Assembly (NCBI RefSeq): GCF_964355755.1 | Contig: NC_092679.1 | Span: 17,660,932 to 17,724,931 of the forward strand | Origin: Antedon mediterranea | Lineage: Eukaryota; Echinodermata; Crinoidea; Comatulida; Antedonidae | Direction of reading: 5' to 3' | DNA length: 64,000 nt | Part shown: in pieces, positions 9,524 through 49,527 of the stretch | How the letters are laid out: each line of letters opens with the position of its first letter | Position numbering within the stretch: the stretch's first letter is position 1 | Position numbers and translations under genes: made by a program | Notes under the pieces: model-generated | The model's database searches: none | What the model was told of the DNA's origin: nothing | What the model saw: the letters and a program-made list of their open reading frames with translations, nothing else

Positions 9524-12055
9524 TTAATGATCGTATTGTGGCATTAAAAAGAAATGCGTTTTGAACTTGTTGTCTGCTGTAGAAGAAGAAGCACGACCGT
9601 CCTTCGTGATACTAAGATACCGACCACTTTTTGTGTTTCCATCGTATGACTGTCTCATAAGCCCTTCTGGTTCACTCCGAATGTTATAGAGTTTGAATTG
9701 GATTAGTGACTGCAAGGACACAAAACACGACCCGGATTTAAACTGTTCTCGCCACAGAATGTCAAAGTTTTGTCGACAAAGAAGCATTGTCTGAGTATTC
9801 TGAAATGTAATTAAGTTAGAAATTTAATACACTAGATAGTGGTAAAGTGGCCACTATTATGAAGAGTGAGAATCACTCTAGAAAAAGAGTGAATGTATTT
9901 CACGCTAAGGATTGAGAAAATAGTGAATTCCTTTCACTGTTTTCTAGATTGACAAACTCTTTAAGAGTTTTCCTTAATAACACTTCTCAATCAAGTGAGC
10001 AACATGGATTGCTACTCTTTTGTGTTAAAAAGTAATATTTTGTGACGATTCTCGGTTGTTTCGAACTGTATTTAATTATTATATGAATCTGTACGATTCC
10101 TATTCTTTTTACTCGCGAGTGTTAAAGCGCTGACTGTTTCTCCCACAAACATTAATGATTTAAATAAGCTATTGAGGGCGCTATCTATTATTATGAAGAC
10201 CGTAACTGAAACAAACATCCACAACGTACCTCTGATCACCGTAATGTACCGTAATGTATTGTAATGTATTGTGCATAAATTCATATTTGTCAAAATTACA
10301 TACAAATAGTATAATAATAGAAATGCCATTTTCTCTCAGGCCTACATTATAACAATTATTAAATTCGGGTTTTTTTTATGAAACATTGTGTTGTATCTTT
10401 CGATAAAAAATGTAGCTCTTTAAAAATAACGAAAATAACTTACATTTCTGGCCGAAACTTTCCCGGTTTCATCCATCGATAAATAAAGACCCGACTCACT
10501 CCCTTTGATAACAACTAAGCTAGGGCCCACGGCAAACGTTTTCACTTTTACTAACAAGAAAATAATATTGTTTAGGCTAACTTTGGTTTTTCACCACAAA
10601 GTCGGAACTCTGACCCAACTCATTTCAGAGTCAAAAAGATACATCATCATAACTGTCACAAAGTGTATCGGTTGATGACAACATGTCTATGTCGACATTG
10701 CCTTAAAATATTTATATATTTATTTCTTATGTTTATTCATGGAGAAATAAGTTTTCTCCATGGTTTATTATACTGTTTAAACTGTTTTATTGTGTATATT
10801 ATAGTCATAGACCAGCATTCGTATTTCATTACATGTACAACCATTTCAATATATAAAGTATGTTTGATTTATAATGACAACTAGAGAAATTATGATGATA
10901 AAGATGTATTCATTGTGGTAAAGATATATTGTCCCTGAAAATTTTTTAATGCCATTTTAAGGTAAAATAATAGAATATTCACTTCGACCAAAAATTGGAT
11001 TGAAAAAAAAAGTTATTTACCTGAAAAAAAAACCACTGTAATTTAAACAAAATATAGTCAATAGTTAATGGGTATTTGGTTGAATTTACCCGTTTATTTT
11101 TTCTTTTTATAATTTTAGGGGTTTTTTTTCTACGGAACTTATGAACTTGATTAAAACTGCGAAACAGCCTATTCAAAGTTTCTTTTTTATTCAAATTTAT
11201 TTGTCATGTTTTTGAAGGACAATTCACCTTTAAGTTTAAGTTGTATTAATTATTACATTATTTAAATGCACCAAAAAAGGCAAACAAATAGAGACAAGCC
11301 AAATCAAAATCATCATTGTTTTTGCAAAATTCTACTATTCTTACTAATTAGTTTATTCTTACAAGAAGTAAACCGCCGAGTTTACACAACATTGTTTTAG
11401 GAATTGTAACCATGGGACGTTTAATGTCGGAGCATTTATAATTAACAATGTTGCGAAAACTACTGTCAATCTACTTGGTGAAGCAAGGAATCTAGAGTTG
11501 AAATTTGTTTGTTGTTGAAAGATTAGAAATTAAAACATTAGGAGGAAGGACAGTTGATCTGAAATCTTTATCATTAATTGGAATAATAGAAATGTATTTC
11601 TTTTGTTATTTTGACATAGAAGATCTGCTAAAACAATAAATAATGTTAATGTTTACGATAACTTAGAAATGAGGTTATTCGGTCCAATAGTTTATAAACG
11701 TGATTGATTGATATTGATTGATATTGATTGATATTGATTTATACAAACCATATTTGTCTTTACAGTTACTTGTACCATGTGTACGTCCGTTTGGTCCAAT
11801 TCGAAGAAAGAACCCCGTTCTTGATAAAACATGTTGTAAGACGTCATAGCGATCATCTTCTAGATGAACATCTTCAGTAGATGAGTATGTTTTCTTATCT
11901 GGTGACACTCCATCGTTTATGTAACGGTAGTCAAAAGATTGGTTATTGACACCAGTCTCTTCGATTGTCTGTTTCATGGCAGACGACAATGTTGATGACA
12001 AATAGTGTGAAACAAACAATGAAATACATATCTGCAGTAACACATGCATCTTCAT
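9524..12055 (-). CDS. FGF-like secreted growth factor, gene A (3 coding exons)
   Basis: Coding exons on the minus strand are 12055-11749, 10550-10444 and 9799-9524 (307+107+276 nt, 229 residues). All introns are GT-AG, with phase 1 then phase 0. Exon 1 encodes an N-terminal signal peptide (MKMHVLLQICISLF) and reaches the first FGF core strands, RTGFFLRIGPNG. Exon 2 gives FAVGPSLVVIKGSESGLYL, the classic FGF pattern of a conserved VG...IxGxxSGLYL strand. Exon 3 gives FDILWRE, GRYLSITKDG and FKTHFFLMP, matching the FGF C-terminal trefoil strands. FGF ligands bind receptor tyrosine kinases outside the cell, usually with heparan sulfate. The cysteine that many FGFs carry just before the RE of exon 3 is not in its usual place. 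A TTTTTAG just before the ATG segment suggests an upstream non-coding exon. Family assignment is strong; the FGF subfamily is not resolved. Confidence 0.9.
10919..11233. mobile_element. MITE family 2, copy in intron 1 of FGF A
   Basis: It starts AAAGATATATTGTCCCTG and ends AAGGACAATTCACCTTTA, with the same AT-rich interior as the copy at 5184. It lies between FGF A exons 1 and 2. The ends are more diverged than in the copies at 5184 and 19977, so it is older. Confidence 0.7.
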
Positions 12056-12266
12056 AGATGATTGTATATGGTGACCTAAAAAGCGTAAAAAGTGAGTAAT
12101 TGAAAAATAAAGTAAAATAAAACCGTAGTTGGGCTGCGGCTATTGCATCAAGTAAAATATCTTTTCCATCGGAAAAAAAATGTCAATTGGATCAAGATTT
12201 AGAATTTGTTTAGACCAGGGAAGATTTAAACTAAAAAGTAGGTTAATTTCTTCCAATCTAACTATC

Positions 12267-12543
12267 AAAGATTATTTCCCACCCAAAACTGAAGATTACT
12301 TAAATCAGACTTTGATGTTATTTTGTTTAAATAATAATAATTTTAATAAACTTAATCACTTTCATAGAAAAAAAACAAAACAAAAATGTTTTCACTAATA
12401 CAAAATAAATAGTTCAATTCCACCAAAAACCCATTGGTTGGCAGCCAATTTGACAATTTTTTGCTATAATTACAGGTTTTTAGGTAAATAGATTTTTTTG
12501 TCAAAGTATTTTATTATTTTTTCAGGGGTACAATACATCTTTA
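12267..12543. mobile_element. MITE family 2, copy upstream of FGF A
   Basis: The right end is CAATACATCTTTA and the interior includes TTGGTTGGCAGCCAATTTGAC, shared with other copies. The left end is degraded. It lies about 0.2-0.5 kb 5' of the FGF A start exon. Confidence 0.7.
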
Positions 12544-12948
12544 AAGAGAAGACTCAAACCGAAAACCCCCAATGTTCTCGTTTAAAGTTCTATAGCAGAT
12601 TATAGTTAAAAGAAGGCGAACTGATGATCTTTTTGTTCTTTCATTCTTTCATTAAAAATAATACATGAAATTATAATACATTAATATAAAAAAAAATATT
12701 TACACTTACCGATTTCGTCAGTTGGTGAACAATATTAATAATTCTTGTTGTACGACCGTTGTGCACCAACCTTTAGTGACATGTAAAACATATAAACTAA
12801 ATATATATTGCAGTAACATTTTATTACCATCACCAGGCGCTTTATCATAACTAGAATACAACACACGTGCACGTTCCCAGGAACAGTTGTGATGGAGCTG
12901 TATAATTATTTGTAAATATGCCTGTATAAAGGTATGGACAGCAGCGTA
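12544..12948. other. Upstream region of FGF A
   Basis: AT-rich DNA between two mobile elements. It may hold a non-coding first exon or promoter of FGF A, but no specific signal could be assigned. Confidence 0.3.
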
Positions 12949-13135
12949 AAGCGTGGTTCCCACTAGCGACGCAACGCAAGGACGTAACGCAATGCAAGTG
13001 AATTGACCAATCACAAGCGATGACTTATTCGCTTGTGATTGCTAACTGTGATTAACAACAATGTGTTGTATTGCACAATAGTGCTGCAAACATCGCAGGT
13101 ATGATTTTCACGTAGGCGGGGGCAAACACAACTAT
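12949..13135. mobile_element. GGTTCCCACTAG MITE, chimeric copy
   Basis: It starts AAAGCGTGGTTCCCACTAG followed by the CAACGCAAGGACGTAACG tract of subtype A. It then switches near 13070 to the GTGCTGCAAACATCGCAGG and GGCGGGGGCAAACACAA tracts of subtype B. The right end is missing. Confidence 0.65.
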
Positions 13136-13153
13136 CGATCGTTAAACAGTGCG

Positions 13154-13559
13154 TATTATAACACCTAAATACATTCCTGTTATTTGATTGGACGAATGTG
13201 GATCACATGGCGTGCAATAGTACGCACTATTAAACGATCGTTTAATAGTACCTTTTTTCTGTGTACGAAAAAAAAATCTTTTCGCATTTGGAAAATATTT
13301 TGTATTATACTACTACCTAATAAAGTCACTTATTTTTTATTTTCGCCGTTATTTGAATGTTATGACTGGTTTTTCGCGATTGAAATACATTTCTGGAGAG
13401 ATATATGTATTAATTTAGATCAAAAAAGCATTTAAAATAGCTTTAGATCGTTTGTATGATTTTAATTAATGGAAACTTGCATTAATTTGTATACTATTAC
13501 ACACCATTTGACCCACAATTGTCCAATCAAATGACAGGAATTCATTGAGGTGTTATAAA
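13154..13559. mobile_element. Element with about 70-bp inverted arms
   Basis: The left arm at 13154-13223 (TATAACACCTAAATACATTC, TTATTTGATTGGACGAATG) is matched in inverse by 13490-13559 (TTGTCCAATCAAATGACAGG, GAGGTGTTATAAAA). The 0.27-kb middle has no real frame. It fits a non-autonomous DNA transposon not otherwise seen in the window. Confidence 0.6.
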
Positions 13560-14100
13560 ACGAAATAACCAACATTTATACGAAATAATAAAATAAATTG
13601 GGATATTCTTTGGTATGTCTAATAAAGTAGAATATAAAATTAATATTAATTTATGATAATATTATTATGAGTGGCTAAATAAGTTACTATATCAATATCA
13701 TTGGCGATCGATCCGCTCAAATGTCAGATTACCGTAAATCCTTGTTTGTCATGATGAACTTTGGGTATATTAACAAAAAACTTTTGTTTTTATATTAGAT
13801 TAATCCCAAACCATTAAAAAATACTATAGATGTTATAAAATTTAATTGATGAAATTAAATGTTATTTTCCATTGTTTTTATTCATTTATTACAAACGAAA
13901 ACTCACGAAACCGTGTCGATATTAAAATATTGTCTAATGATATTTTATTGATAGAAATCATATTCATTTACACAGTCTGGAATGTATAAATGGAATTAAT
14001 GTCTTAATGTGCGTTGCCAAGATAGAAACTCGTAACAGTGTTTTGATCTAATGTCTAGCAGAGTACTGTGTACATTCTCCGCGGCGCGCAGTGTCTGTTA

Positions 14101-14313
14101 AAGTGTGGTTTCCACTAGAACGCAACGCAACGACGTATCGACGCGACGCAAAGTGCTGTATTTCGTAATCACAAGTGGGAACCGACGATGCAACAGTGCT
14201 GCAAATATCGCAGGTTGGATTTCACGCAGGCGGGGGCAAACACAATTATTGGAAGGGCATTTTCTTACGTTGCGTAGATTGCGATACGTTTCGTCGCAAG
14301 TGGAAACCACGCT
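14101..14313. mobile_element. GGTTCCCACTAG MITE, subtype B copy
   Basis: Its ends (GTGTGGTTTCCACTAG and CAAGTGGAAACCACGCT) are inverted repeats of the same type as subtype A. The core is different: CAAAGTGCTGTATTTCG, CAACAGTGCTGC and GGCGGGGGCAAACACAA. Open frames on both strands are by-products of the palindrome. Confidence 0.75.
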
Positions 14314-14350
14314 AAGGGGCGTGGAGCTGATCGTGTCGCAGCCACTGATA

Positions 14351-14531
14351 AAGCGTGGTTCCCACTAGCGACGCAACACAAGGACTTAACGCAACGCAAG
14401 TGAATTGACCAATCACAAGCGATGGCTTATTCGCTTGTGATTGCTAACTGTCTATAACTTCGCTTGTCATTGGTTAAAACGCTTGCGTTGCGTTTACGTC
14501 CTTGCGTTACGTTCTAGTGGGAACCAAGCTT
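14351..14531. mobile_element. GGTTCCCACTAG MITE, subtype A full copy
   Basis: About 180 bp running from AGCGTGGTTCCCACTAG to CTAGTGGGAACCAAGCT and palindromic over nearly its whole length. Each arm carries GACGTAAcGCAACGCAAG-type motifs. Flanking TAA on both sides suggests a TAA target duplication, as in PIF/Harbinger-type elements, although other copies fit TA equally well. Confidence 0.8.
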
Positions 14532-14708
14532 AAACACTTTGGTCTCCGGAGTTAGGCATCATGTTGTTATGATTGACTTGCTCTCACCATAGACAGAACC
14601 AACTCAATGATTTCCTATCCCATCCACTGAACTAATAATATCTATACTGTCAATATCATGAAGGAAGTAACAGAAGTGGTGCTTTCCATTTTTTCGAGCT
14701 TTTTGCTC

Positions 14709-14920
14709 AAGCTTCATTCCCACTAGCGACGCAACGCAACCTACGCAACGTAAGAAAATTCCCTTCCAATAATTGTGTTTGCCCCGCCCCCGCCTGCATT
14801 AAATCAAACCTGTGATGTTTCCAGCACTGTTGCATCGTTGGTTCCCGCTTGTGATTACGCAATACAGCACTTTGCTTCGATACGTCGCTGCGTTACGTTA
14901 CGTTTCGTTCCGTTTGTAGC
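14709..14920. mobile_element. GGTTCCCACTAG MITE, subtype B copy (inverted)
   Basis: It carries the subtype B core in the opposite direction to the copy at 14101: CCAATAATTGTGTTTGCCCC, CCTGTGATG, CAGCACTGTTGCATCG. The right terminus is diverged. With its neighbours it forms a cluster of four copies in about 2 kb. Confidence 0.7.
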
Positions 14921-15667
14921 CACCATATACAAGATACAAGATGTTTTTATTGTCACTTTTGGAAGAAAACAAAAACTGACGCTAAAAGAAGTACCGCAAT
15001 ACCAATGTATACAGATATAATAAAATTATACAGAAATAAAGCATGGCGTATGTACAGGCAATCATGGGCCAAAGTTAAATATACAACAACCAGCAACATT
15101 ATCGTTCACAGTATTTTTATTAGTGTTTTTGAAACTGTAGAAAACTTAATAGAAATTTATAGAGTGAACTTACGCCCTGGATTAAGTAGTAAAATGTTAT
15201 TTACATTACAAAACAGTTGATTACTATATCTATGGTAGAACATTTATTGCGTTAGACCCACATTATTCACCCGATACTAAACAGTCCTAACTCTATAGAC
15301 AAAAGACAATAGAAAAGTTTCATGGGTTGTGTCGCATAGGCCTATCACATGTGTTTGCTGTTTATTGTCATAAGAGCTTAACTCTGTCACACGACAAGTA
15401 TGAGGTGAGACAGTTCTAGATAAATGTGCGTTTACACGTGGAAATCGGGTAAAGTTATCGGTATATTTTTTTGTTTATGCATCATGGTTGTGCAATCTGA
15501 AATCACACCACAGAGTAGGCGATAATTAGGCCTATTCAAGGACCAGGGGTACGTAGGCATAATTAGTCCGTGCCTACTTTTCTTTGAAGGCAGTATTCCG
15601 GATTTAGAAAAGCATATGAATAAGCATACCAACCATTATAGTATGATGGATGATGTCGATTTCATAA

Positions 15668-15811: not shown

Positions 15812-15812
15812 A

Positions 15813-21794: not shown

Positions 21795-22560
21795 ATTTGA
21801 GAAAGTGTGCTCCTCTTTGAGAAATTGTGCAATATGCAACATTCAGGAAATTGTGCTACCTTTTTGAGAAATAATTGTGCTAACCATTCGGGAAATTGTG
21901 CTACCTCTTTGAGAAATTGTGCTACCCATTCGGGAAATTGTGCTACCTCTTTGAGAAATTGTGCTAACCATTCGGGAAATTGTGCTACCTCTTTGAGAAA
22001 TTGTGCTAACCATTCGAGAAATTGTGCTACCCATTCGGGAAATTGTGCTACCTCTTTGAGAAATTGTGCTACCCATTCGGGAAATTGTGCTACCTCTTTG
22101 AGAAATTGTGCTAACCATTCCGGAAATTGTGCTACCTCTTTGAGAAATTATGCAATCCTTTCGGGAAATTGTGCTACCTCTTTGAGAAATTGTGCTAACC
22201 ATTTGGGAAATTGTGCTACCTCTTTGAGAAATTGTGCTAACCATTCGGGAAATTGTGCTACCTCTTTGAGAAATTGTGCTAACCATTCGGGAAATTGTGC
22301 TACCTCTTTGAGAAATTGTGCTAACCATTTGGGAAATTGTGCTACCTCTTTGAGACATTGTGCTAACCATTCGGGAAATTGTGCTACCTCTTTGAGAAAT
22401 TGTGCTAACCATTTGAGAAATTGTGCTCCCTCTTTGAGAAATTGTGCTAACCATTCGGGAAATTGTGCTACCTCTTTGAGAAATTGTGCAATCCATTCCG
22501 AAAGTTGTGCTACTTCTTTGAGAAATTGTACGTACGGTATACCTATTTGAGAAATTGTGC
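21795..22560. repeat. 42-bp minisatellite (two alternating 21-mers)
   Basis: Units alternate GAAATTGTGCTACCTCTTTGA with GAAATTGTGCTAACCATTCGG for about 36 monomers. Because 42 is a multiple of three and the unit lacks stops, long frames stay open on both strands. These frames have no start context, codon bias or family match and are not annotated as genes. Confidence 0.9.
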
Positions 22561-25723: not shown

Positions 25724-27172
25724 ATGTATTCAACTTTTGACAGTCAGTCTGCTCTTCAAGGTGATAATCCAATGTTCTCTGACAGCTCTCAGGCCCAATA
25801 CGAGGACGGAACAAACCACTTGGAGGAGGCTAAACACTTAGAGGATATCCGACTAGGTATCTTGCAAAAGCGAATACAAATGGGCCTAGGTCATATAAAC
25901 CTACAGACATTATGGAGACTGAGTGGTCCACATAAGGTAGATACTTCATTTACATTATCAAACCTATTCTATCCAAATACTTGGCTAAAACAAATATATC
26001 TGTCAAGCATTGGTAAATTCATATATTTTCTATTCTTTCGGAGAAACTTGTGTAAATTATTTGTAAATAGTAAATTTGATCCGATTTTTGAAAATTATAA
26101 AATAGATCGAAACGTTGAATTCTCAATAATATCTTTTCTGTCTCTTAATTCATTAATTTGGAGTTGGTCTATTTTATCTGAAACTATATTAAATTCATCT
26201 TCGCATAGAAATAGATGATCTTCTGGTATTTTTTATTCTAGAATAAGATCGAATCGTTTTATTAAATCATCTGTAATAGTGTATTTGCCTTTACAATAAC
26301 AATTAAAATAAACATAACTTTATTTGCAATTTATTGAATCGTCAAAGCAAACTCTGATCAGAACGTGGCTTCTCCATAGAGCCAAACATAGAGCCAAACA
26401 TTTATTGAATACTCTTTCTTTTTCAATAAAATTTAGCTAAGTCCTGAGGAAGAGCAGAAACGTAATCAGAGGCGGGAACGTAATCGCCAGGCTGCAGCGA
26501 GATGTAGAGAAAGAAGACGTCAGCGAGCATACGTACTGGTTCAGGTAAACATTCTATAACTTAAATAGACAAGATTGGGCCTACCTGTACCCATAGGATT
26601 CAATTAGGGGGACTACATGACCTTTGACCTTGATTACCTAACGAACGCAAACTCGGTCTTTCTTATACCCAACTGCACCCACCCACAAAGTTTTAAGATC
26701 TTGCGACACATATAGTTTCTGAATAAAGCCGGACAGACGGACAGACACATAAGTACCGTATAAATAACACGCCCTCAGTATACAAACACAATAAAGTATT
26801 ATTACTACTTGACTACAGAGGTTGCACTCCTATTATTACTTCAATATATCTATAGGCCTCAATGCAAATATTATGGACCGTTTTAATTCAGTTGAAAATA
26901 ATTTTTTTTTTTAGGAAGCCGAAGAACTTGAAAATAGTAATGATGACCTAAAGAAAGAAATACAGGCTTTAGAGCACCAAAGACAGCAGTTAGCCAAAGT
27001 GTTAAATGAACACCAACCGAATTGCGCCGTTCAAGAACCAGCAAAAGGAATAAGTCTGCTAGAATCTGCTGAATGTCTTGCACAGTCTGTAGCACAATGT
27101 CCAATAGAAAGTGAACTGAGATCTTCATGTATAGTGAAGACAGCTTCTTTTTGGCCAACATCTTCAATGTAA
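25724..27172 (+). CDS. ATF3/FOS-class bZIP transcription factor, gene 1
   Basis: Three coding exons, 25724-25936, 26437-26544 and 26915-27172 (213+108+258 nt, 192 residues), both introns phase 0 and GT-AG. The TTTTTCAG before 25713 implies an upstream non-coding exon. Exon 2 encodes the basic region with the signature NRQAAARCRERRRQR. In FOS the corresponding exon is also 108 nt and also ends just before the zipper. Exon 3 begins EAEELENSNDDLKKE, giving five leucines at strict seven-residue spacing, then LNEHQPNCAV, like the HRPxC end of FOS and ATF3. The protein should bind AP-1 or CRE DNA in the nucleus as a dimer. A short acidic/amphipathic N-terminus (EDIRLGILQKRIQ) resembles ATF3/JDP2 more than FOS; exact orthology is open. 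The 3' flank has an AU-rich nonamer at 27735. Confidence 0.92.
26600..26770 (+). repeat. Dispersed repeat in intron 2 of bZIP gene 1
   Basis: It contains TGACCTTTGACCTTGATTACC, then AAGTTTTAAGATCTTGCGAC, and ends in GGACAGACGGACAGACAC. This order is typical of short interspersed repeats in marine invertebrates. No coding capacity. Confidence 0.4.
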
Positions 27173-30170: not shown

Positions 30171-30199
30171 CCACATTGTTTACGCTTGAGTGTGTGACT

Positions 30200-31811: not shown

Positions 31812-34604
31812 ATGGCCTTGGTACCACTTCTTACCGGAGGCAGGAATATGGATCACCATATCCAATTCAAGTCCGACTGTTTTGACAACTCTGATACAAA
31901 TAATAAGGTACTGTGTAACACCATCTATCATTATTTCAACGTATTGGTAATTCATTTTTATTTTGACGCTGTTCTGAGCATGCATCATCAACCATATACT
32001 CAAAACTGAAGTCTCTTAAACTCGGAATTTCTTTAAAAAAAAAACTATAAATGTGTGGTCATATTCTTTTATTTTGCTAATAGTTTATCATAAGTCAGAA
32101 CATATAATATAAATCAATAAAACTATATAATTGTAATATAAAGTTCACATTGAGTTCACTTTATGTATTCTAGTAGCTTCGTTAATTTTATGTTAACGTT
32201 TTTTCTTTTTTCCCCTTTATTCTATTCCGCATTGTACAATTATGTTTGTATCTTTGTGTAAATACACACAATTATCACGAGTATTGATATTGTAAAACTG
32301 ACAAATTTTTTTGAAATTTGATACTGAAGACTAATAGATGTTTCTATTATGAGTATAACAATGCACGATTTACCCATGTTATGCATTCTGTAAGCCGTTA
32401 CAAACGGATTCACACACTTATAGGCTTTAACCTGGAGAAACCGCTAATCCAAAAAAAAAAAATTGTAGTTTTTTTAATTTTGTGTAAATTTCACTAAATG
32501 AAATAATGAAAAAATTAAAATTCTTTATTAATTATATTCGAATACTTTACATTGACCCCGCCTGCTCTTGAACGGGCCGAATTAATGTGCATTTTTATAT
32601 AGGCCTAAACGAAATATTAAGGACGGCCTCGAATAAAACCATTTTTATACATTTTTCATTGTACGACGCGGTACCGAAAGAAGGCCAATAAAAAGAACTT
32701 TGTAAGCATTTATTTTTTCAGTTCTTTATTAAAACAACAACAATACGGCTACAACCCACATTAAAAGATACCTTTGTAACCGTATAAAGAAGTCAACATA
32801 ATATTACTTAAATTGACAAGGGAGTGCCCATTCAGGCCAACACAAACTTAGTTTGCAACGTAAAGCTAACAATTGTTATTATGGAAGACGACGCTACGCT
32901 TTTCTTTAATTCGTTTCACAGATCTCAAAAGATGTACATTTGCAACAGCAACTGATTCGACGAGAGCGGAACAGGCAAGCGGCAATGCGGTGCCGCGAAC
33001 GTCAACGACAACGCACAAACGCATTATCACAGGTTAATTTAATACAAATTTCCATAAATAAAACAATACCTAACATGTCAGTTAACAATAAAGCATGTTT
33101 AAAAAATGTTTCAACTAAACATGTTTCAACTAAACAAATGTTTAGCCTAAGAATGTTACAACTCAACATGTTTAAGAATATTGCAATTCAACATGTTTAA
33201 GAATGTTACAACTCAACATGTTAAAGAATGTTACAACTCAACATGTTAAAGAATGTTACAACTCAACATGTTGAAGAATGTTACAACTCAACATGTTGAA
33301 GAATGTTACAACTCAACATGTTAAAGAATGTTACAACTCAACATGTTGAAGAATGTTACAACTCAACATGTTGAAGAATGTTACAACTCAACATGTTGAA
33401 GAATGTTACAACTCAACATGTTGAAGAATGTTACAACTCAACATGTTGAAGAATGTTACAACTCAACATGTTGAAGAATGTTACAACTCAAAATGTTTCA
33501 AAGAAGATTACAACTCAACATGTTGAAGAATGTTGCAACTCAACATGTTGAAGAATGTTGCAACTCAACATGTTGAAGAATGTTACAACTCAACATGTTT
33601 AAGAATGTTGCAATTCAACATGTTAAAGAGTGTTGCAACTCAACATGTTAAAGAATGTTACAACTCAACATGTTTAAGAATGTTACAATTCAACATGTTT
33701 AAGAATATTGCAATTCAACATGTTGAAGAATGTTGCAACTCAACATGTTGAAGAATGTTGCAACTCAACATGTTGAAGAATGTTACAACTCAACATGTTA
33801 AAGAATGTTACAACTCAACATGTTAAAGAATGTTACAACTCAACATGTTAAAGAATGTTACAACTCAACATGTTAAAGAATGTTACAACTCAACATGTTA
33901 AAGAATGTTACAACTCAACATGTTAAAGAATGTTACAACTCAACATGTTTAAGAATGTTACAACTCAACATGTTGAAGAATGTTACAACTCAACATGTTG
34001 AAGAATGTTAAAACTCAAAATGTTTCAAAGAAGATTACAACTCAACATGTTGAAGAATGTTGCAACTCAACGTGTTGAAGAATGTTGCAACTCAACATGT
34101 TGAAGAATGTTGCAACTCAACATGTTGAAGAATGTTGCAACTGAACATGTTGAAGAATGTTGCAACTGAACATGTTGAAGAATGTTGCAACTGAACATGT
34201 TGAAGAATGTTACAACTCAACATGTTGAAGAATGTTACAACTCAACACGTTCTAAAGAAGATTACAACTCAACATAGGAATGTTACAACTCAACATGTTC
34301 CAAAGAAGATTACAACTCAACATATTCCAATAATTATGTTGCTATGTGTACAAACACAGGATCAATTTAATGTATTCGCCAATAAACACGAAATTAGATG
34401 GCAAACACTTAAGTTAAGTTTAATAATAGTAGTCTTACTGACGTACTTTTAATTTACTTTTTAAAGGAAGTACGAAGTCTTGCAGATACAAACTTAAGTT
34501 TACGAAGACAGATATCACAGTTACAGTTGGAGGCAGAGGCTCTTAACATTCTACTACATGAACATAATAACACTAACGAATGTATGGTTGGAAAAGGCAG
34601 TTAG
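31812..34604 (+). CDS. Short ATF3/FOS-class bZIP transcription factor, gene 2
   Basis: Coding exons 31812-31907, 32922-33032 and 34467-34604 (96+111+138 nt, 114 residues), phase 0 introns, all GT-AG. Exon 2 encodes the basic region (IRRERNRQAAMRCRERQRQR). Exon 3 supplies the zipper, with leucines every seven residues through LSQEVRSL, LSLRRQIS, LQLEAEAL and ending LLHEH. The split between basic region and zipper is at the same place as in gene 1, so the two arose by duplication. At 114 residues it is close in size to BATF and has almost no room for a transactivation domain. It may act as a partner or repressor (inference). Intron 2 is filled by a 25-bp minisatellite. A poly(A) signal AATAAA lies at 34709, about 105 nt after the stop. 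The basic region has methionine where gene 1 has the third alanine (AAM versus AAA). Confidence 0.88.
33148..34328. repeat. 25-bp minisatellite in intron 2 of bZIP gene 2
   Basis: About 47 tandem copies of a 25-bp unit, AAGAATGTTACAACTCAACA followed by TGTTG. Each contains the palindrome CAACATGTTG. Variant units (GTTGCAACT, TTTCAAAGAAGATTACAACT) come in blocks, showing segmental expansion. Short open frames across it are by-products of the repeat. Confidence 0.92.
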
Positions 34605-36078: not shown

Positions 36079-37769
36079 TCATGAGACAAGATAGAAATCC
36101 GTTTTAAAGTCCGTATTCTTTGCTGATGAAGATACTCTACCACTTTTCTTTATGGTAAGAAATCTGCCATTAGCCGTTGCGTTCGTTGATTTTGCAATAT
36201 TGGCTAGATCCACACGATGTTGTTGAGCATTGTTATCGAACTGTATTAATGATCTGAATGAAACAAAACAGGAATCTAGCTTGAAGTATTCCCGCCACAG
36301 AATATCAAAATTATGTTCGGAGAGAATGCGTGACCGCGTGTTCTGAAAATAAACAAAAGCATTCTGTGAGTGAGTGAGTGGCCGAGCGGTTAAGACAGTG
36401 GAACCGTAATTACGTAGCCATAACATCGGCAGGGTTCGAGTCTCACTCATGGTTCCGGTGGTAAAACGAGTCTTCTCGGATAAGGACTATAAACCGTAGG
36501 TCCAGTCTAGCTAGCTCGTGTACACTTTAAAGAACCTAGTACATATTTTGAGACGAGTAGGGGGTTACCCCGGTGTATTAGTACATCACAGCCACTTATC
36601 ATAACTAAGCCCTCTGGGAGACCAGTCTTTGACTGAAGAGGTTACCCAGTATAAATATATATTTCAATTCCAATCATTTACAAACAAAAAGCACACAACA
36701 CTAAAACTTTAGGCAAGTAATACATGTGTAAAGTGTCATTTTATTCCATCACGAGCCTTTACTCACATTCCTTCCGCAAATTTGTGGCTGCTGTTTTATA
36801 GCCAAACGTAGGCCTACAGTTTGACGTTTGATGATTACTGTCGACACCCACCGCAGATGAGTGCAAACTCCGTAGATCTGTTTGGCGTTAGTTATGTGAA
36901 AGGATTATTATTATTCTACTTACATTTCTAGCAGATATCCTCCCACGTCTTCCTATTGATAAGTAAAGCCCTGTCTTTGTCCCTCTGATTATTAACAAAT
37001 TCGGTCCAACCGCAAATGTTGTCATTCGTGCTGAAAGTCAATTGGATGATATGTTATCCTTCATCTTGTTTCCACTAAGGACGGACGCAAGGACGTAATA
37101 ATGATTATTCTTTCTTCTTTATAACTGCCGCTTGCCATTGGTCAACTTCATAGTGGGAAACAAGCTTACATAGAAGAAACTTACAGAAGAAAATTATTCT
37201 CAAACATCGTGGTTTTCGACATTTTGATCAAAAGTTCATTGTATCGAAAATTGGATCGTCCATGTTTGGAATGGAACTCTCCGTTAAATATCTGAAAAAA
37301 TTATCAAGACTGTATCTCCTTATGACAACATTTGTCTGTGATACAGAATATCATTTCTATCATATTGGGTATCTGTATCATGAACAGGTAAAGGTTAGGG
37401 TCTATGGTACAGGATTGCGGTAATGGAGATACAGCCCCGAGAATCTTTTCAGATATTTTCCCATTAAATACACATAAGCCTAATCTACTCACTGTATTTA
37501 TCATTAAAGACATCGGTACCACGAACGTCTCCATTGGGTCCAATACGAAGAAATAACCCAGTTCTTGATATAATTCTCTTCACACCTTTCGGGTTCGCAT
37601 AGACATTTATACCACTTGAATATTTTGTATAACTTTGTAGGCCTACGCCGTCATTCATAATACTATCAAATCCCAACTCGTGGTCCAAGCCAAGCGACGC
37701 GTTTAAATGCTGAGCTAGTGCCATAGAATAATGCATCCCTGTCAACAGCAAGTATATTTTCAAAAGCAT
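36079..37769 (-). CDS. FGF-like secreted growth factor, gene B (3 coding exons)
   Basis: Minus-strand coding exons 37769-37493, 37030-36924 and 36342-36079 (277+107+264 nt, 215 residues), with phase 1 then phase 0 introns exactly as in gene A. Exon 1 carries a signal peptide (MLLKIYLLLTGMHYSMALAQ) and the core start RTGLFLRIGPNGDVRGT. Exon 2 gives FAVGPNLLIIRGTKTGLYLS. Exon 3 gives NFDILWREYF, GRFLTIKKSGR and DFKTDFYLVS, then stop, so the C-terminal tail is shorter than in gene A. An ACTAG/GTAATG context at the start codon suggests a 5' non-coding exon. The protein should be secreted and signal through FGF receptors if these exist in the organism. A SINE lies in the second intron, only 24 nt from exon 3. 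FGF identity is secure from three independent exons; subfamily unknown. Confidence 0.9.
36367..36660 (+). mobile_element. tRNA-headed SINE, copy 2, in FGF B intron 2
   Basis: Box A region GTGGCCGAGCGGTTAAGACA and box B region GGGTTCGAGTCTCACTC, then the body shared with the copy at 18866, ending CCCAGTATAAATATATAT. It is antisense to FGF B and its 5' end lies 24 bp from the exon 3 acceptor. Confidence 0.82.
37064..37168. mobile_element. GGTTCCCACTAG MITE, internally deleted relic
   Basis: TTGTTTCCACTAAGGACG at the left and AGTGGGAAACAAGCTTA at the right with ACTGCCGCTTGCCATTGGTCAA inside. It lies in FGF B intron 1. Confidence 0.5.
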
Positions 37770-38045
37770 TACCTAGTAAACAAAGTAGTATAATGTTCTA
37801 AATGAAACTGTGAAAGTGTTTTACACACGTTGATAGGTCTAAATGATTGTTTTACTATTTTCTCCACACACTTTTAACATTATATAATACAGACATTACG
37901 TAATTTCGTTATACGTTTGTATAAACGTGTGTGAAAAAATGATATTTAGTTGCAAAAACTAAAACTTTTAAAAGCTACTAATATAGAAACAAAGTTACAT
38001 AATATAATTTTACATTAAAACACAAATCTAAAATAATGATTCTAT

Positions 38046-38555: not shown

Positions 38556-38564
38556 ATGAAAAAG

Positions 38565-39473
38565 ATCATCAGAGTCGAGTGGTCGAATCAAGAGGTCGAG
38601 TCGAGTCTTCGGGCCGCGAGTTGTCGAATTGAATGGTCGAGTAGAGTCTTCGAGTCGAGTCTTCGGGCCGCGAGTTGTCGAATTGAATGGTCGAGTAGAG
38701 TCTTCGAATCGAGTTTTCGGGCCGCGAGTTGTCGAATTGAATGGTCGAGTAGATTCTTCGAGTCGAGTCTTCGGGCCGTGAGTTGTCGAATTGAATGGTC
38801 GAGTAGAGTCTTCGAGTCGAGTCTTCGGGCCGCGAGTTGTCGAATTGAATGGTCGAGTAGAGTCTTCGAGTCGAGTCTTCGGGCCGCGAGTTGTCGAATT
38901 GAATGGTCAAGTAGAGTCTTCGAGTCGAGTCTTCGGGCCGCGAGTTGTCGAATTGAATGGTCGAGTAGAGTCTTTGAGTCGAGTTTTCGGGCCGCGAGTT
39001 GTCGAATTGAATGGTCGAGTAGAGTCTTCGAGTCGAGTCTTCGGGCCGCGAGTTGTCGAATTGAATGGTCGAGTAGAGTCTTCGAGTCGAGTCTTCGGGC
39101 CGCGAGTTGTCGAATTGAATGGTCAAGTAGAGTCTTCGAGTCGAGTCTTCGGGCCGCGAGTTGTCGAATTGAATGGTCGAGTAGAGTCTTCGAGTCGAGT
39201 CTTCGGGCCGCGAGTTGTCGAATTGAATGGTCGAGTAGAGTCTTCGAGTCGAGTCTTCGGGCCGCGAGTTGTCGAATTGAATGGTCGAGTAGAGTCTTCG
39301 AGTCGAGTCTTCGGGCCGCGAGTTGTCGAATTGAATGGTCGAGTAGAGTCTTCGAGTCGAGTTTTTGGGCCGCGAGTTGTCGAATTGAATGGTCGAGTAG
39401 AGTCTTCGAGTCGAGTCTTCGGGCCGGGAGTTGTCGAATTGAATGGTCGAGTAGAGTCTTCGAGCTGACTCAT
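38565..39473. repeat. 54-bp GC-rich minisatellite
   Basis: Nearly 17 copies of a 54-bp unit (GAATGGTCGAGTAGAGTCTT, CGAGTCGAGTCTTCGGGCC, GCGAGTTGTCGAATT). It is much richer in GC and CpG than its surroundings, and TCGA occurs several times per unit. The unit is 18 codons long and lacks stops, so frames of 185-353 codons stay open on both strands. These carry no domain and start or stop in repeat edges, so no gene is called. It begins right at the LINE tail. Confidence 0.92.
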
Positions 39474-41050: not shown

Positions 41051-41052
41051 GA

Positions 41053-41150: not shown

Positions 41151-41179
41151 ACGGATACTTTCACAGTCTATGTACCCCA

Positions 41180-42556: not shown

Positions 42557-43236
42557 TTACGATATGCCTATCAGGAAAAAATTGTTTTTGAAGTCTGTAT
42601 CGGTTTCTGAGGAGGTCACCCGGCCACTCTTATTAATGGTAAGGTACCGACCCTGTTTTACCATACCGGGTGTATCCACGTTTTTCGTATAAAACAGCCT
42701 GAGTGATTGAAATGATACAAAACATCCGGGATACTGGTATTTTTCTCTCCAAAGAATATCAAAGTTTTGTTCAGATAGGATACTTGATTGTGTATTCTAA
42801 AAAAAAATGAAAATTATAGTTACAATGACAATGTATTCTTTTCTTTCGGAGAACATAAACTAATTGTACAATAAGTATCATCTTATTCTAAGTATAAAAC
42901 CAATCAAAGAAAAGGGGATATTAGCATTAACAACATGCTACTCGATTTTTATTTATTTATTAATGTTTATTCCATACGCATTAACAGTGAGCAACGCGCC
43001 AATTACAGGATGGATAAACTTTATAGTTTATCGTGAGTTTAATCTAAATTGAGGCTTATGGGGTGGCATGGCGAAGAGTTGTGAATTACCACCCTGGCAA
43101 CAGGGCAAGATTAAACCCTGGACCCTGAGATTGGAAGGCAAGCACGTTAACCACCAGGCTACTCAGCTCCACACTCTGAGCACTTGATTTATTAGACTTG
43201 CCCCAAGTCTGTATTCATTGTCTTTTTTTTATTAAA

Positions 43237-43267
<31 letters not shown>

Positions 43268-46200
43268 CTATGTTTTTATTTCGAATTTTGTCAAGCTCAA
43301 GTAGTATACCTATGAAACGCCATATGTGCCAAAATAATGATCTTTTAACTAATATTAAGACATTAGTTTATCTACTTATTCTTACATTTCTCGCCGTTAT
43401 CTTGCCGCTTTTACTGATTGATAAGTAAAGGCCTGAATTCGTACCACGAATGACGATCAAACTAGGACCGACGGCAAATGCTGTCACGTGGACTAAAAAG
43501 AAATGTTTCAAAAAAGTTAAATTTCATTCAAAAGTTAATTTCCAGATATTTTTTTATATTGTCTGAATCATGCAAATCCCACATTAATGTTTGTCAAGGT
43601 TACATTGATCTATCAGCGATAGAATTGGACAAATGTGGTCCATGTAACAATTCATTTCCGACATTTGACACGTGTTATGATTTATGTTTATTAACACATG
43701 TTTTTAACATTTTATGTAAGATTTTGAACAGATATATTAAATTTTTCTGTCCGCCCCGCGTTATGTGTAAATGACAATAATAGTAGAGCAGTTAACGCCA
43801 AGTTGTGCACTTTATTACCAAAGCATGAAACTTTCCACAAAGTTTTTTTGATGTATATAGATTCAAAATATTGGGGGGTGCCAAGTGTCCAACGTCCGGT
43901 ATGGCGGCCATCTTGATTTCAAAATGGCCGCCATAAAAACAAAAAGTGTTCATATCTTGGCAACTATAAACATTAGAGACTTGATTCAGGTGTTAAATTG
44001 TTCACAAACCACATATTTCTATTTGCTCTAATGAAAAGTTTCGTCCAAAAATGACCGGAAATGACGTTTCTTCCAGTTTGACCTTTGACCTCTTATCTGT
44101 ATATCTCAGTAACTACTGATCATTTTCAATCGATTTTGGTGTCATTTTGTTCAGAATAGAGACATTTATATTTTTAGTAATGAAACATTTTCACATAAAA
44201 TTACTGGAAATACAATTTATAACCTTTGACATATATCATTATGTACTGTATGTGGTTTAATTGGTATAAATGCACCTAATTTTTTTACCGAAATAAATGA
44301 CACGGATTTATTATTAACTTTTGATGTGATAGGATAGGCATAAAGTATGACAGATCACTGAGCTCATCTATGCCGACATGTTTGCTAAACTGTGATGCGT
44401 CAATCGTTTTTTCGTTGCATCTAAAAAAATGTACTCCATTTTTATGGTAATGGGCCTTTTTTACCGAAATAAATGACACGGATTTATTATTAACTTTTGA
44501 TGTGATAGGATAGGCATAAAGTATGACAGATCACTGAGCTCATCTATGCCGACATGTTTGCTAAACTGTGATGTGTCAATCGTTTTTTCGTTGCATCTAA
44601 AAAAATTTACTCCATTTTTATGGTAATGGGCCTTTGCTGTAAACCTTTCATCTGAATCCTTTTCCTCGATTTTCTCTAGTCATTGATTTTTTAGAAAAAT
44701 CCGAACTAAATCAATTCATAAAAGACATCTCAATATAATTATTCAAGTAATCCTCAAATTAGTGACATGGACCTACAATATACTGTTCTGTACAAGACCT
44801 GTTTAGGCATCCACCTGTAGGCTTTCACTTTAAAGGTCTTGGTTTCCTAATCATACAAGAAACATATCTCTAATTTAATCAATCAAAGTAGTGGGTCCAG
44901 ACAAAGAAGGGGGTGTAAGACCATCCACAGACAAAGAAGGGGTTGTAAGACCATCCACATACAAAGAAGAGGGTATAAGACCACCCACAGACAAAAAAGG
45001 GGGTGTAAGACCATCCACACACAAAGAAGGAGGTGTAAGACCATCCACACACAAAGAAGGAGGTATAAGACCATCCACAGACAAAGAAAGGGGTGTAAGG
45101 CCATCTACAGACAAAGAAGGGGATGTAGGACCGTCCACAGACAAAGAAGGAGGTATAAGACCATCCACTGACAAAAAAGGGGTATAGGACCATCCACAGA
45201 CAAAGGAGGGGGCGTAGGACCGTCCACAGACAAAGAATGGGGTGCAAGACCATCCCCTGACAAAGAAAGGGGTATAGGACCACTTACAGACAAAGAAGAG
45301 GGTATAAGACCATCCACAGACAAATAAGGGGTGTAGGACCATCCACAGACAAAGAAGGGGGTGTAGGACCATCCACAGACAAAGAAGGGGAGAAGACCAT
45401 CCACAGACAAAGAAGGGGAGAAGACCATCCACAGACAAAGAAGGGGATATAAGACCATCCACAGACAAAAAAGGGGGTATAAGACCATCCACAGACAAAT
45501 AAGGGGGTGTAAGACCACCATCCACAGACAAATTAAAGGAGTCCAAGACCATCCATACACAAAGAAAGAGGTGTATAAGACCATCCACATACAAAAAAGG
45601 GGTTTAATACCATCAACGGACAAAGAAAGGGGTGTAATACCATCAACAGACAAAGAAGGGGGTATAAGATCACCCACAGGTACAGAAGGGGGTATAAGAC
45701 CGTCCACAGAAAAAGAAAGGGGTGTAAGACCATCCACAGACAAAGAAGGGAGTGTAGAACCGTCCACAGACAAAGAAGGGGGTGTAAGACCATCCACCAC
45801 TGACAAAGAAAGGGGTATAGGACCACTTCAGACAAAGAAGGGGTATAAGACCATCCACAGACAAAAAAGGAGGTGTAGGACCATCGGACCATCCACAGAC
45901 AAAGAAGGGGATGTAAGACCACCCACAGACAAAGAAAGGGTGTAAGACCATCCACATACAAAGAAGGGATTATAAGACCATCTACAGACGAGACAAAGAA
46001 GGGATTATAAGACCATCTACAGACAAAGACAGGGGTGTAAGACCATCCACACACAAAGAAAGGGGTTTAATACCGGGTGTCACGAAACCTAAGACCACGA
46101 AAGCTAAGACCCCCTAAGACCTAAGATCACGAAAGCTAAGACCCAAGACCTAAGATTACAAATTCTAAGATATACTACAGCTTAAAAACAATACTTGTTT

Positions 46201-49200
46201 ATCCATACATAATTTTAAACACAGTAGGTGTCATTTATTACCATAAATATAATTTAATACTACCGCAAAACATAGATAAACTCACATTATTTTCGCCCGT
46301 TGAGTAAATGTATATTTTTTCTTTACAACAAACAACTTGAGGGTGTCACGAAAGCTCAGACCACGAAAGCTCAGACCCCCTAAGACCTAAGATCACGAAA
46401 GCTAAGACCCAACACCTAAGATATACAAATACTAAGATATACTACAGCTTAAAAACAATACTTGTTTATCCATACATAATTTTAAACACAGTAGGTTTCA
46501 TTTATTACCATAAATATAATTTAATACTACCGCAAAACATAGATAAACTCACATTATTTTCGCCCGTTGAGTAAATGTATATTTTTTCTTTACAACAAAC
46601 AAACTTGACGGGTTGTTTGTTGGTATATATTTACTCCATTGTGTTGGTTCAGAGGATGTTTTTCTTACGCACCTGCCTTTCTTGTATTTTGACTCCAAAT
46701 TTGTTGACTAACTTTATCCTGAACACCACACTTTAAAATTAGGACTTATAAGTACTTTCAGAAGGAGAAACACATAATGACAAATAAATAAATCCTTTAA
46801 ATTGATGATTTTACAGATGTGTTTCTTTGTATACTGTAATGACAATGTAACTCCTCGAGTTCCCAATGCTCAATGTTTTTGTTTCTATGGAGCGCCAAAA
46901 GAGCAACAATAATAGTACAAGTATAAAAACAGAAAGAAAACGAAACAAAAAAACTTATCATGATTTTTTAATTAAAATTTATTTGCCAGTATTTATTTCT
47001 TCGTACTTGCATGATTATACTATTATCATTACAATTTAAATTTTACATTGTTCCATCCACACTGTAGATGGACTCCACAGAGTTTTCAGCCCTCTATATA
47101 ATTTTTGCTCTTTTGACGTTCCATAGAAACAAAAACATTGAACATGGCCCATGGGGTAGGCCTACTGTACTGTAGGCTAGTCATTTTGTGTGCGAGAAAA
47201 ACGTCTGTAAAATCATCAATTTAAAAATGTATTACTTTTTATGTGATTCTTTTTCATGAAAGTGCCAATTCTAAAGCTTTGTCTACACTATCAAACTTTA
47301 TGTGTCAAAAAAATGTGATGTGCCCATATATGGACATGATGATGTCATATCACTACCATATTTAAGCATAGCCCTACCATATATAGGCAAATCAAACTTT
47401 TTTGACACATAAAGTTTGATAGTGTAGACAAGGCTTAAGGTGTGGTATTCAGAATAAATGTTGGGAGTTAAAATACAAGGCAGGTGCGAAAGATAAATAT
47501 TTGTAATCTTAGGTCTTGGGTCTTAGCTTTCGTGATCTTAGGTCTTAGGGGGTCTTAGCTTTCGTGGTCTTAGGTTTCGTGACACCCGTTTAATACCATC
47601 AACTGACAAAGAAAGGGTGTAATACCATCAACAGACACAGAAGGGGGTATAAGACCATCCACAGACAAAGAAAGGGGTATAAGACCGTCCACAGACAAAG
47701 AAAGGGGTGTAAGACCATCCACAGACAAAGACGGGTGCATAAGACTATCCAGACAAAGAAGGGGGTGTAGGACCATCCACAGAAAAAGAAGGGGATGTAG
47801 GACCATCCACAGACAAAGAAGGGAGTGTAGGACCATCCACAGACAAAGAAGGGGTGTAAGACCATCTACAGACAAAGAAATGGGTGTAAGACCATCCACA
47901 CATAAAGAAAGGGGTGTAATAATACCATCAACAGACACAGAAGCGGGTATAAGACCATCCACAGACAAAGAATGGGGTATAAGACCATCTACAGACAAAG
48001 AAGGAGGGTTAGGACCATATTAACCGAGGAAGCATACAAAAATAAGATCAAAATAGGCCTACCACTTGGAAAACAATAAATTGTAGAATAACTGTGGCTT
48101 AATTGTTGAAATAGAAAGGGTTCTTTGTAAGGTCATTAATAATATATTGATATAAACACGATCATCATACTATTCATTTGACAATCAAATACAGTCTGTC
48201 TCGAAAAGAAGCTCATACTATCACCTTTTCGAGGTTTTACGGTATTCAATAAACATGTATGTTATTTCCTCTGTCAAACTATTAAAACTTTTAGCGAATC
48301 AGAAGGTGCCAACATCATTGAACTAATGGTACCACCAAGCACAATGTTTACCAATTTTATGTACTATATACAATTTAAGTCCATTAATCATTTAATATAA
48401 TTACGCCTATCAGGTTAAAGTTCAAAATTAGGTGCACTTTAGACCAACAAAAACCACCTACAGTATATTCACATAATTAAAAATCAATAAATTAATGTCA
48501 AAGGTCATAAATTGTATTTCCTGTCATTTTATGTGAAAATGTTTCATTACTACAAATATAAATGTATTTATTCTGAACAAAATGACACCAAAATCGATTG
48601 AAAATGACCAGTAGTTACAGAGATATACAAATACGAGGTCAAAGGTCAAACTGAAAGAAACGTCATTTCCGGTCATTTTTGGACGAAACTTTTCATAAGA
48701 GCAAATAGAAATATATAGTTTGTGAACAATTTAGTCTCTAATGTGTATAGTTGCCAAGATATGAACATTTTTTGTTTTTATGATGGCCATTTTGAAATCA
48801 AGATGGCCGCCATACCGGACGTTGGACACTTGGCACCCCCCAATATTTTGAATCTATATACTTCAAAGAAACTTTGTGCCAAGTTTCATGCTTTGGTAAT
48901 AAAATGCACAGCTCATGTCATTAACTGCTCTACTAATAAGGAGTAACATGAGATTCTATATTTTTATTACCGTTACCGCTTGTCTGTGTAAATTGGCCTT
49001 TGTTGTGATAAAAGTTAGGCCTACAGGCCATGGAATTTACACAAACGAGCGGTAAGCGGAAAACCGCGTAGATTGTCCCATCCACCCCGCTTTGTGTGTA
49101 AATGGCAATAAGGAGTAATATATTATATATTTTTATTATTTATACCGCTCGTCTGTGTAAATTGGCCTTTATGGTAATAATGTATTTAATGCTAACAGAA

Positions 49201-49527
49201 CTAACCGTATTTATCTTTACAATTACTTGTTCCACGAACACTGCCATCTGGATCGATACGAAGAAACAATCCCGTCCTTGATGCGATTTTCTTGTCGCTA
49301 ATGCGTTGGTTCTCAGTGCCATCTCGATGGTGAACGTTTGATGCGTTTGATGATTTTCTTTTAAGTTTTATATAACTGCCGTCATTGTACCGAATTTTAA
49401 ATAATTCGTAAGTTTTACTGTTGTTGTGTGTTACTTTGCTTACGGCTTCGTCCAAGACCGACGGTGGCGTCGTCGATAGGCATATCTGAAGAACCGCCCA
49501 GACTAAACATATCTTCAACAAAATCAT
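42557..49527 (-). CDS. FGF-like secreted growth factor, gene C (3 coding exons)
   Basis: Minus-strand coding exons 49527-49206, 43492-43386 and 42796-42557 (322+107+240 nt, 222 residues), phase 1 then phase 0, donors GTTAGT and GTAAGA. Exon 1 has a signal peptide (MILLKICLVWAVLQICLS) and core RTGLFLRIDPDGSVRGT. Exon 2 gives FAVGPSLIVIRGTNSGLYLS. Exon 3 gives QNFDILWREKY, GRYLTINKSGRVTSSE and DFKNNFFLIGIS, then stop. The plan is identical to genes A and B, so the three are tandem paralogues in the same orientation. TTTTAG immediately before AAAATG hints at a 5' non-coding exon. Intron 1 is 5713 bp because of a nested transposon insertion; without it the intron would be about 554 bp. No disabling change is seen in the exons. 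Linking exon 1 across this long intron rests on phase and exon content, and transcripts would confirm it. Confidence 0.87.
43063..43172 (-). mobile_element. tRNA-like SINE head in FGF C intron 2
   Basis: On the minus strand: GAGTAGCCTGGTGGTTAACG (box A-like) and CCAGGGTTTAATCTTGCCC (box B-like), followed by a non-tRNA tail. Box B is diverged, so this is probably an old copy. Confidence 0.5.
44282..44640. repeat. 180-bp direct tandem duplication
   Basis: Two nearly identical copies, 44282-44458 and 44459-44638, each running from TTTTTACCGAAATAAATGAC to TTATGGTAATGGGCC. Only a few substitutions separate them, so the duplication is recent. It is inside the 5.2-kb element, next to its left arm. 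Confidence 0.85.
44888..46074. repeat. 30-bp minisatellite, left block
   Basis: Roughly 38 units of GACCATCCACAGACAAAGAA followed by GGGGGTGTAA, with variable length (28-33 bp). Length changes shift frame between units, so the long frames in several phases (up to 239 codons) are not a conserved protein. The array continues at 47588 after an insertion. Confidence 0.9.
46075..47587. mobile_element. 1513-bp foldback element with 10-bp target duplication
   Basis: The tips GGGTGTCACGAAACC and GGTTTCGTGACACCC begin inverted ends that match without a difference for about 89 bp and hold repeated CTAAGACC motifs. The target duplication GTTTAATACC is present at 46065-46074 and 47588-47597. The left end is itself duplicated in tandem (46075-46341 and 46342-46610). 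The inner arms also pair (TTTTTGTTTCTATGGAGCGCC near 46876 with TTCCATAGAAACAAAAAC near 47120), so the whole element is a large hairpin. A 9-10-bp duplication with long inverted ends is the pattern of Mutator-like elements. No transposase frame. Confidence 0.88.
47273..47436. mobile_element. MITE family 3, nested in the foldback element
   Basis: Inverted ends AAAGCTTTGTCTACACTATC and GATAGTGTAGACAAGGCTT extend for about 40 bp each (through TTTATGTGTCAAAAAA). The interior has ACCATATTTAAGCATA. It interrupts the right arm of the foldback element, whose pairing partner in the left arm lacks it, so it inserted later. Confidence 0.85.
47588..48015. repeat. 30-bp minisatellite, right block
   Basis: Continuation of the array at 44888, about 14 units of the same sequence. 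The array was one block before the foldback insertion. Confidence 0.88.
48950..49195. mobile_element. MITE with TACCGCTYGTCTGTGTAAATTGGCC ends
   Basis: TTACCGCTTGTCTGTGTAAATT at about 48977 and inverse TTTACACAAACGAGCGGTAAGC at 49032, then a further TACCGCTCGTCTGTGTAAAT at 49141. The same motif appears at 54636 and 54953. It lies in FGF C intron 1 next to exon 1. Confidence 0.6.

Follow-up and report, generated by a model that had tools for sequence, protein, structure and literature searches.

Does a cluster of fibroblast growth factor (FGF) genes in a crinoid encode ordinary ligands, or a family in which the receptor-facing side of the FGF fold has been remodelled? The question is raised by a stretch of 64,000 nucleotides of the Antedon mediterranea genome (contig NC_092679.1, here C10:17660932-17724931; the whole stretch is called the window), in which a sequence-only reading had placed three FGF genes, A, B and C. 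All three were present on the minus strand with exon coordinates that proved correct to the base. Each of the six predicted introns is bounded by GT and AG, with intron 1 in phase 1, intron 2 in phase 0 and a middle exon of 107 nt in all three genes. The reading frames are open, and the predicted spliced proteins measure 229, 215 and 222 amino acids for A, B and C, with B and C being 46% and 49% identical to A. The proposed profile search of the assembled proteins bore out the FGF assignment, with Pfam PF00167 scores of 54.3 (A), 48.4 (B) and 59.6 bits (C) against a cut-off of 24; as these scores exceed the cut-off, the matches are not due to chance, and a false FGF reading is ruled out by the Pfam scores together with the common exon structure. 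In A and B the best PF00167 stretch covers exon 2 and the core of exon 1; in C it extends into exon 3. A profile built from A, B and C and searched against PDB matched the natural FGFs FGF7 (4.3e-11) and FGF20 (1.7e-10), with designed FGF1-derived trefoils scoring better (3.8e-16). From the comparisons presented below we consider it probable that the three belong to a set of at least 11 paralogous secreted FGF-fold ligands with a remodelled receptor or co-receptor face. The basis of this reading is the FGF homology of 11 gene models, their union in one tree group, the middle exon of 107 nt, and an exon 3 which is kept within the family and has diverged strongly from other FGFs.

With respect to family size, the genes had been counted as a trio; as FGF paralogues they stand, while the number does not. 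Queried with C, A and g11, the genome (354 Mb in 18 contigs) returned 33, 34 and 30 matches, all at the same twelve places, which resolve into 11 gene models, a lower bound, and one relic. Six of the models (g1, g2, g3, A, B and C) form an array spanning 98 kb of C10, all on the minus strand. In the eight models outside the window exon 2 was sought among AG..GT stretches of 92-128 nt with a length of 3n+2, keeping whichever stretch best matched A, B or C, so that the GT..AG borders around exon 2 of these eight hold by construction. Exon 2 is 107 nt in 11/11 models. PF00167 matched all 11 at E<=0.001 and the Pfam Fascin model, another beta-trefoil, matched seven of them at the same threshold; a genome-wide search with the PF00167 profile found no family gene at E<=0.001. 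An open frame from ATG to stop is present in 10/11 models. The NFDILWRE block described as shared is exact in seven models, and its core, NxDILW, is found in all 11. Exons 2 and 3 of the relic were found neither by the C, A and g11 queries nor in 7.6 kb of local DNA. No report of such a family was found in the FGF literature searched, which consisted of titles and the beginnings of abstracts, mostly without subscription papers.

Three other FGF genes, unevenly supported, were indicated in the genome by PF00167 searched genome-wide and a home-made human FGF profile: L011/L013, L010/L014 and L012. The first exon of L010, contained in L014, fell below the inclusion threshold (E 0.59), two exons of L012 had home-profile E-values of 2.6e-4 and 0.011, and a first exon of L012 was not found. 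A search with L011 as query returned only its own three exons. As the middle exons of these genes are 104, 110 and 104 nt, the plan of three coding exons is the usual FGF plan; vertebrate FGFs have an exon of 104 nt as well. The invariant exon plan is thus present in every member as had been observed, and as a sign of something new it fails, with only the extra codon being special. Within this genome a 107-nt exon 2 is the mark of the family. In a gapless alignment with L011 and FGF1 the extra codon comes last in exon 2 and encodes the Asn of ...ARN|NT (the bar marking the splice junction). An N-x-T sequon runs across the exon 2/3 junction in 9/11 models, with Glu in g10 and Tyr in g11 instead.

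The divergence of the family from human FGFs is unevenly distributed over the three exons. For the exon 1 core, identity was 59.6% within the family, 30.7% between family and human FGFs and 31.9% among human FGFs; for exon 2 the corresponding values were 59.2%, 25.9% and 38.0%, and for exon 3, where poor alignment underlies the figures, 43.3%, 11.8% and 34.0%. Thirteen columns of exon 3 are invariant within the family, among them N.DILW, CF and GR, and an invariant Cys is present. When the 11-member exon 3 profile was searched against PDB, 17 of the 19 sequences at E<=10 were FGFs, the best being a consensus FGF (1.5e-4); entries for FGF1 and FGF2 followed at 0.0052 and above, aligned at the second trefoil lobe. 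Since the match of exon 3 to human FGFs is short, the fold of the third lobe is a matter of interpretation, and we infer that FDILW would form strand 8 and CFVSF strand 9.

The glycine box, the Tyr motif and the site of FGF2 Tyr24 have heparin- and receptor-contact roles. The glycine box was absent at the aligned site in 11/11 models, while its regular expression matched 11/14 human FGFs; stray matches occurred in A and C, within a variable loop. The NYNTY-like Tyr motif before strand 9 was likewise absent at the aligned site in 11/11 models and was found in 14/14 human FGFs, with stray matches in A and g9, both within exon 1, and in g11, where exons 1 and 2 join. Nine models carry an aliphatic residue or Ala at the position of FGF2 Tyr24, and g10 and g11 carry Phe there. 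Over the 20 residues that follow strand 10, the same number of models have a net charge of 0 to +3, and g10 and g11 one of +6; the human values are +4 to +8 for 11 FGFs and +3 to +4 for FGF19/21/23. Judged by these alignments, exon 3, whose product holds on to receptor and heparan sulfate in known FGFs, is changed almost beyond recognition.

A tree was calculated from the 11 family models, 14 human FGF cores and L011, L010 and L012 (28 rows, with a midpoint root for drawing only); two of the 14 human cores were verified. All 11 models fell on one side of a branch with support of 100/100, apart from the 14 human FGFs, and the family did not nest in any human subfamily tried (1/2, 3, 4/5, 7/10, 8/18, 9, 12, 19/21/23). 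FGF12 came next outside L011 with weak support (78/82). Placement of A, B and C in different, older subfamilies, which had been named as the outcome that would count against a common expansion, was therefore not observed among the human and own-genome FGFs compared. By sequence, the expansion is larger than first noted and is set apart from the human subfamilies tried. The description of A, B and C as tandem paralogues is correct in that they group within the family and incorrect in implying a self-contained trio, as A is closest to g7, 4 Mb distant (91/94 in the 28-row tree, 76/90 in a tree of the 11 models). Pairing of B with C was weak (84/17). Forcing the six array genes together made the tree 16 to 17 log-likelihood units worse, with approximately unbiased (AU) test p values of 0.043 (28-row, a weak rejection) and 0.092 (11-row, no rejection), and forcing A, B and C together was not rejected (AU p 0.28, 11-row tree). 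Because synonymous differences by the Nei-Gojobori method were near or at saturation in 54/55 pairs (pS 0.63-0.83), the duplications are mostly old. The sole recent pair is g10/g11, with dS 0.16, dN 0.12 and a ratio of 0.75; dN/dS was 0.12-0.43 in 36 other pairs, rough values as dS is near saturation, and could not be estimated in 18. Most of the array is old by this measure, and some members have probably moved away. As for the accompanying statement that FGF clusters are uncommon outside vertebrates, such clusters do exist there: FGFB and FGFE of amphioxus are clustered according to excerpts of PMC3420111.

In the model that we favour, the family would have expanded in the echinoderm lineage, probably in crinoids. 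An N-terminal signal peptide would lead to export of each protein, most members would be N-glycosylated at the exon 2/3 junction, and the proteins would adopt a beta-trefoil fold and act as diffusible ligands. Binding to an FGF receptor (FGFR) in an altered manner, or through a different co-receptor, is the most likely mode of action, and is proposed because the glycine box and Tyr motif are gone and the charge is low in 9/11 models. Retention by heparan sulfate would be weak, except perhaps for the basic g10 and g11, and the members of the array may serve as tissue- or stage-specific ligands. Possible receptors were sought with an FGFR1 kinase query; among the best 150 of 181 candidates, which were those scored, at least 38 matched at E<=1e-8, the best two (C4:1176491 and C10:16983507) with 67% identity over 75 and 72 residues, and some shorter kinase fragments were equally identical to FGFR1.

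One way to account for these genes without any change of receptor face is that they are FGFR ligands of the ordinary kind: a normal echinoderm FGF related to L011 would have given rise to a fast-evolving branch which still binds FGFR and heparan sulfate as usual, with an exon 3 that looks odd through fast evolution and poor alignment. L011 is indeed the nearest non-family gene in the tree (support 94/88, on long branches), the other two FGFs of this genome are also very divergent, with end branches of 1.67 and 2.09, and g10 and g11 have retained the charge of +6 and the Phe at the Tyr24 site. Set against this are the 13 invariant columns, because of which exon 3 is not drifting freely, and the loss, in every model, of glycine box and Tyr motif from the aligned sites, and we regard this explanation as unlikely. 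The same loss of canonical contact motifs would suit secreted descendants of FGFs that have given up FGFR signalling, such as beta-trefoils of a matrix, lectin-like or immune kind, as would the matches to the Fascin model and a conserved exon 3 with an invariant Cys. PF00167 nevertheless outscores Fascin as the Pfam match for A, B and C and matches the whole family, the exon 1 core is as near to human FGFs as these are to one another, and FGFR-like kinase fragments are present in the genome; a non-signalling role is in our estimation improbable. That the loci are decaying duplicates or assembly artefacts we consider very improbable: the relic on C9 has an in-frame stop, g3 is start-less and the g10/g11 ratio is high, yet nearly all models are open throughout, and A, B and C have stayed intact though mutually saturated at synonymous sites.

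Several observations nevertheless weigh against a secreted family with a remodelled receptor face. The putative signal peptide is a hydrophobic N-terminal stretch by the Kyte-Doolittle measure only, a stretch whose peak, in the cases of B and g2, does not exceed that of the rest of the protein. The exon 3 profile aligned with human exon 3 over 14 columns only, at a score of 17.4 (40 shuffles gave 12.7 or less) and an hhalign probability of 4.6%. C also passed the cut-off of the Fascin model (31.2 bits, cut-off 23.1), and the lost canonical contacts would be equally compatible with a ligand that makes no use of FGFR. Around the expected start of g3 the ATGs are out of frame, and its sole in-frame ATG lies inside the FGF domain; this gene may be a pseudogene, have a missed upstream exon or reflect an assembly error. 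With these points taken into account, the family is a strongly modified FGF branch, a variant and not a new kind of system. More tentatively, it is possible that this crinoid or echinoderm branch, its receptor- and heparan-sulfate-binding half rebuilt, makes up a new class of at least 11 glycosylated FGF-fold ligands with a receptor or co-receptor of their own. If the favoured model is true, the existence of at least 11 FGFs with a rewritten contact exon would mean that the variety of non-vertebrate FGFs has been underestimated, in part because exon-by-exon profile searches nearly miss such genes, and the family would offer a natural test of an FGF that alters its receptor face while the fold is kept. 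FGF is described as a central signal in echinoderm skeleton and muscle in the excerpts of PMC8180256 and PMC6091094.

Compared with the vertebrate paracrine FGFs (FGF9/16/20, FGF7/10, FGF1/2), the family is alike in its FGF domain over the exon 1 core and exon 2 and in its phase 1 and phase 0 introns, but differs in the extra exon 2 codon, a longer exon 3, the missing glycine box and Tyr motif and its separate tree group. The endocrine FGF19/21/23 resemble it in being without the heparin-binding glycine box and in their lower basic charge over the same region; unlike the family, they have kept a Y-N-V-Y or Y-D-V-Y motif, and they are found elsewhere in the tree. Hemichordate FGFs, known here by description only, are ambulacrarian and partly the product of lineage duplications, with fgf8/17/18 and fgfa to fgfd in Ptychodera and six genes in Saccoglossus, that is five or six ligands against 11 (excerpts of PMC6091094 and PMC3420111). 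Other echinoderm FGFs share the FGF domain and were compared by count only: according to excerpts of PMC8180256, sea urchin has one gene and brittle star has two, Fgf9/16/20 and Fgf8/17/18, against a family of 11 and three others in Antedon.

The 5' ends of the models were analyzed with an acceptor scoring matrix built from 22 acceptors of the family's coding introns and applied to the 55 nt upstream of each ATG, g3 being excluded. An acceptor-like site scoring at least 6 was present in 7/10 models, 20-22 nt from the ATG in six and 3 nt in C, and g7, g8 and B remained under 6. Among 5261 control ATGs, which include the ten starts, 4.7% reached this score. A tunicate origin, which sites so close to the ATG might suggest, was rejected: a Ciona spliced-leader pattern had 0 matches, a search with Pfam GH6, part of the tunicate cellulose synthase, came up empty, as it did for controls, and the ordered cluster of 12 Hox genes described below speaks against it. 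A COX1 search aimed at a mitochondrial code was likewise without a match. An intron in the 5' untranslated region or spliced-leader trans-splicing may be the cause of these sites. Of the signal-peptide exon assigned to each gene, the hydrophobic start was recovered, whereas it may not be the first exon in view of the acceptor-like sites upstream of the ATG.

Table 1. Coordinates of FGF-related features; positions without a contig name are those of the window.
Feature	Position	Strand	Description
Gene A exon 1, 307 nt	11749..12055	-	ATG, hydrophobic N-terminus, variable spacer, first FGF strands; phase 1 end
Gene A exon 2, 107 nt	10444..10550	-	phase 1 in, phase 0 out; final codon is Asn of NNT sequon
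Gene A exon 3, 276 nt incl. stop	9524..9799	-	NFDILWRE...CFVS...GRYLSI
Gene B exon 1, 277 nt	37493..37769	-	
Gene B exon 2, 107 nt	36924..37030	-	final codon is Asn of NNT sequon
Gene B exon 3, 264 nt incl. stop	36079..36342	-	
Gene C exon 1, 322 nt	49206..49527	-	
Gene C exon 2, 107 nt	43386..43492	-	final codon is Asn of NNT sequon
Gene C exon 3, 240 nt incl. stop	42557..42796	-	
Acceptor-like site, gene A	12076..12091	-	20 nt before ATG, score 6.3
Weak acceptor-like site, gene B	37773..37788	-	3 nt before ATG, score 1.2, under threshold
Acceptor-like site, gene C	49531..49546	-	3 nt before ATG, score 7.7
g1	C10 17.6126-17.6147 Mb	-	array member
g2	C10 17.6384-17.6411 Mb	-	array member
g3	C10 17.6528-17.6554 Mb	-	array member, without in-frame start
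g7	C10 13.656-13.658 Mb	+	
g8	C10 23.870-23.872 Mb	+	
g9	C5 29.327-29.330 Mb	-	
g10	C9 12.466-12.470 Mb	-	
g11	C9 13.859-13.865 Mb	+	
L009, relic of FGF-family exon 1	C9:14.305 Mb		partial exon 1 near g11, in-frame stop before
L011/L013	C5:10.63-10.64 Mb		middle exon 104 nt; one exon over Pfam cut-off
L010/L014	C5:27.013-27.021 Mb		middle exon 110 nt; one exon over Pfam cut-off
L012	C4:1.069 Mb		middle exon 104 nt; 20 bits against Pfam cut-off of 24

Elsewhere in the window, intron 1 of gene C contains inverted arms at 43801-44232 and 48495-48913, which consist of adjoining segments of 239 and 186 nt (about 425 nt), are 94% complementary and lie about 4.3 kb apart; with the 30-bp tandem repeats that they enclose, they resemble a transposable element bounded by long terminal inverted repeats. 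Tandem arrays at 38596-39464, 21873-22529 and 44898-46074 have periods of 54, 42 and 30, all multiples of three, and both of their strands contain long open frames; in a fourth, at 33149-34323, the period is 25. Between A and B, on the opposite strand, a bZIP-type basic region was found at 32910-33200 (+; PF07716, 26.8 bits, cut-off 22.3), together with leucine-zipper-like frames at 26915-27172 and 34413-34604 (+) that had no Pfam match. An EF-hand-like frame at 54778-55158 (-) scored 27.1 bits with PF13833, slightly below the cut-off of 28, and an open frame at 61872-62189 (+), also with no Pfam match, is what we take to be the start of HECTD1. No Rfam match was obtained in the window at gathering thresholds. 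The GC content of the window is 33.6%; excerpts of PMC7351957 give 33.2% for a feather star and 33.7% for sea urchin, values too close to tell the groups apart.

Of the 23 matches of a homeodomain search of the genome, 12 lie in order at C2:7.83-8.21 Mb (L015-L026), and these we take to be Hox1-8, 9/10 and 11/13a-c. All of these genes share a strand except one member of the last pair, which is turned towards the other; the pair lies about 47 kb from the cluster. In a feather star, excerpts of PMC7351957 describe Hox1-11/13a in order, including Hox4 and Hox6, and a face-to-face 11/13b-c pair which in that species is more than 360 kb from the cluster. A brittle star is reported to have a full though rearranged Hox set (excerpt of PMC12126913). 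Taken together, the Hox genes point to an echinoderm, probably a crinoid, with the difference in the distance of the pair and the brittle star set standing against a straightforward match to the feather star. Hox11/13d and e have been described from echinoderms and not from hemichordates (excerpt of PMC6307216). A posterior-Hox query detected two partial posterior-like homeodomains outside the cluster, at C2:8.834 Mb and C8:11.080 Mb, as would be expected of Hox11/13d and e, for which the two are candidates.

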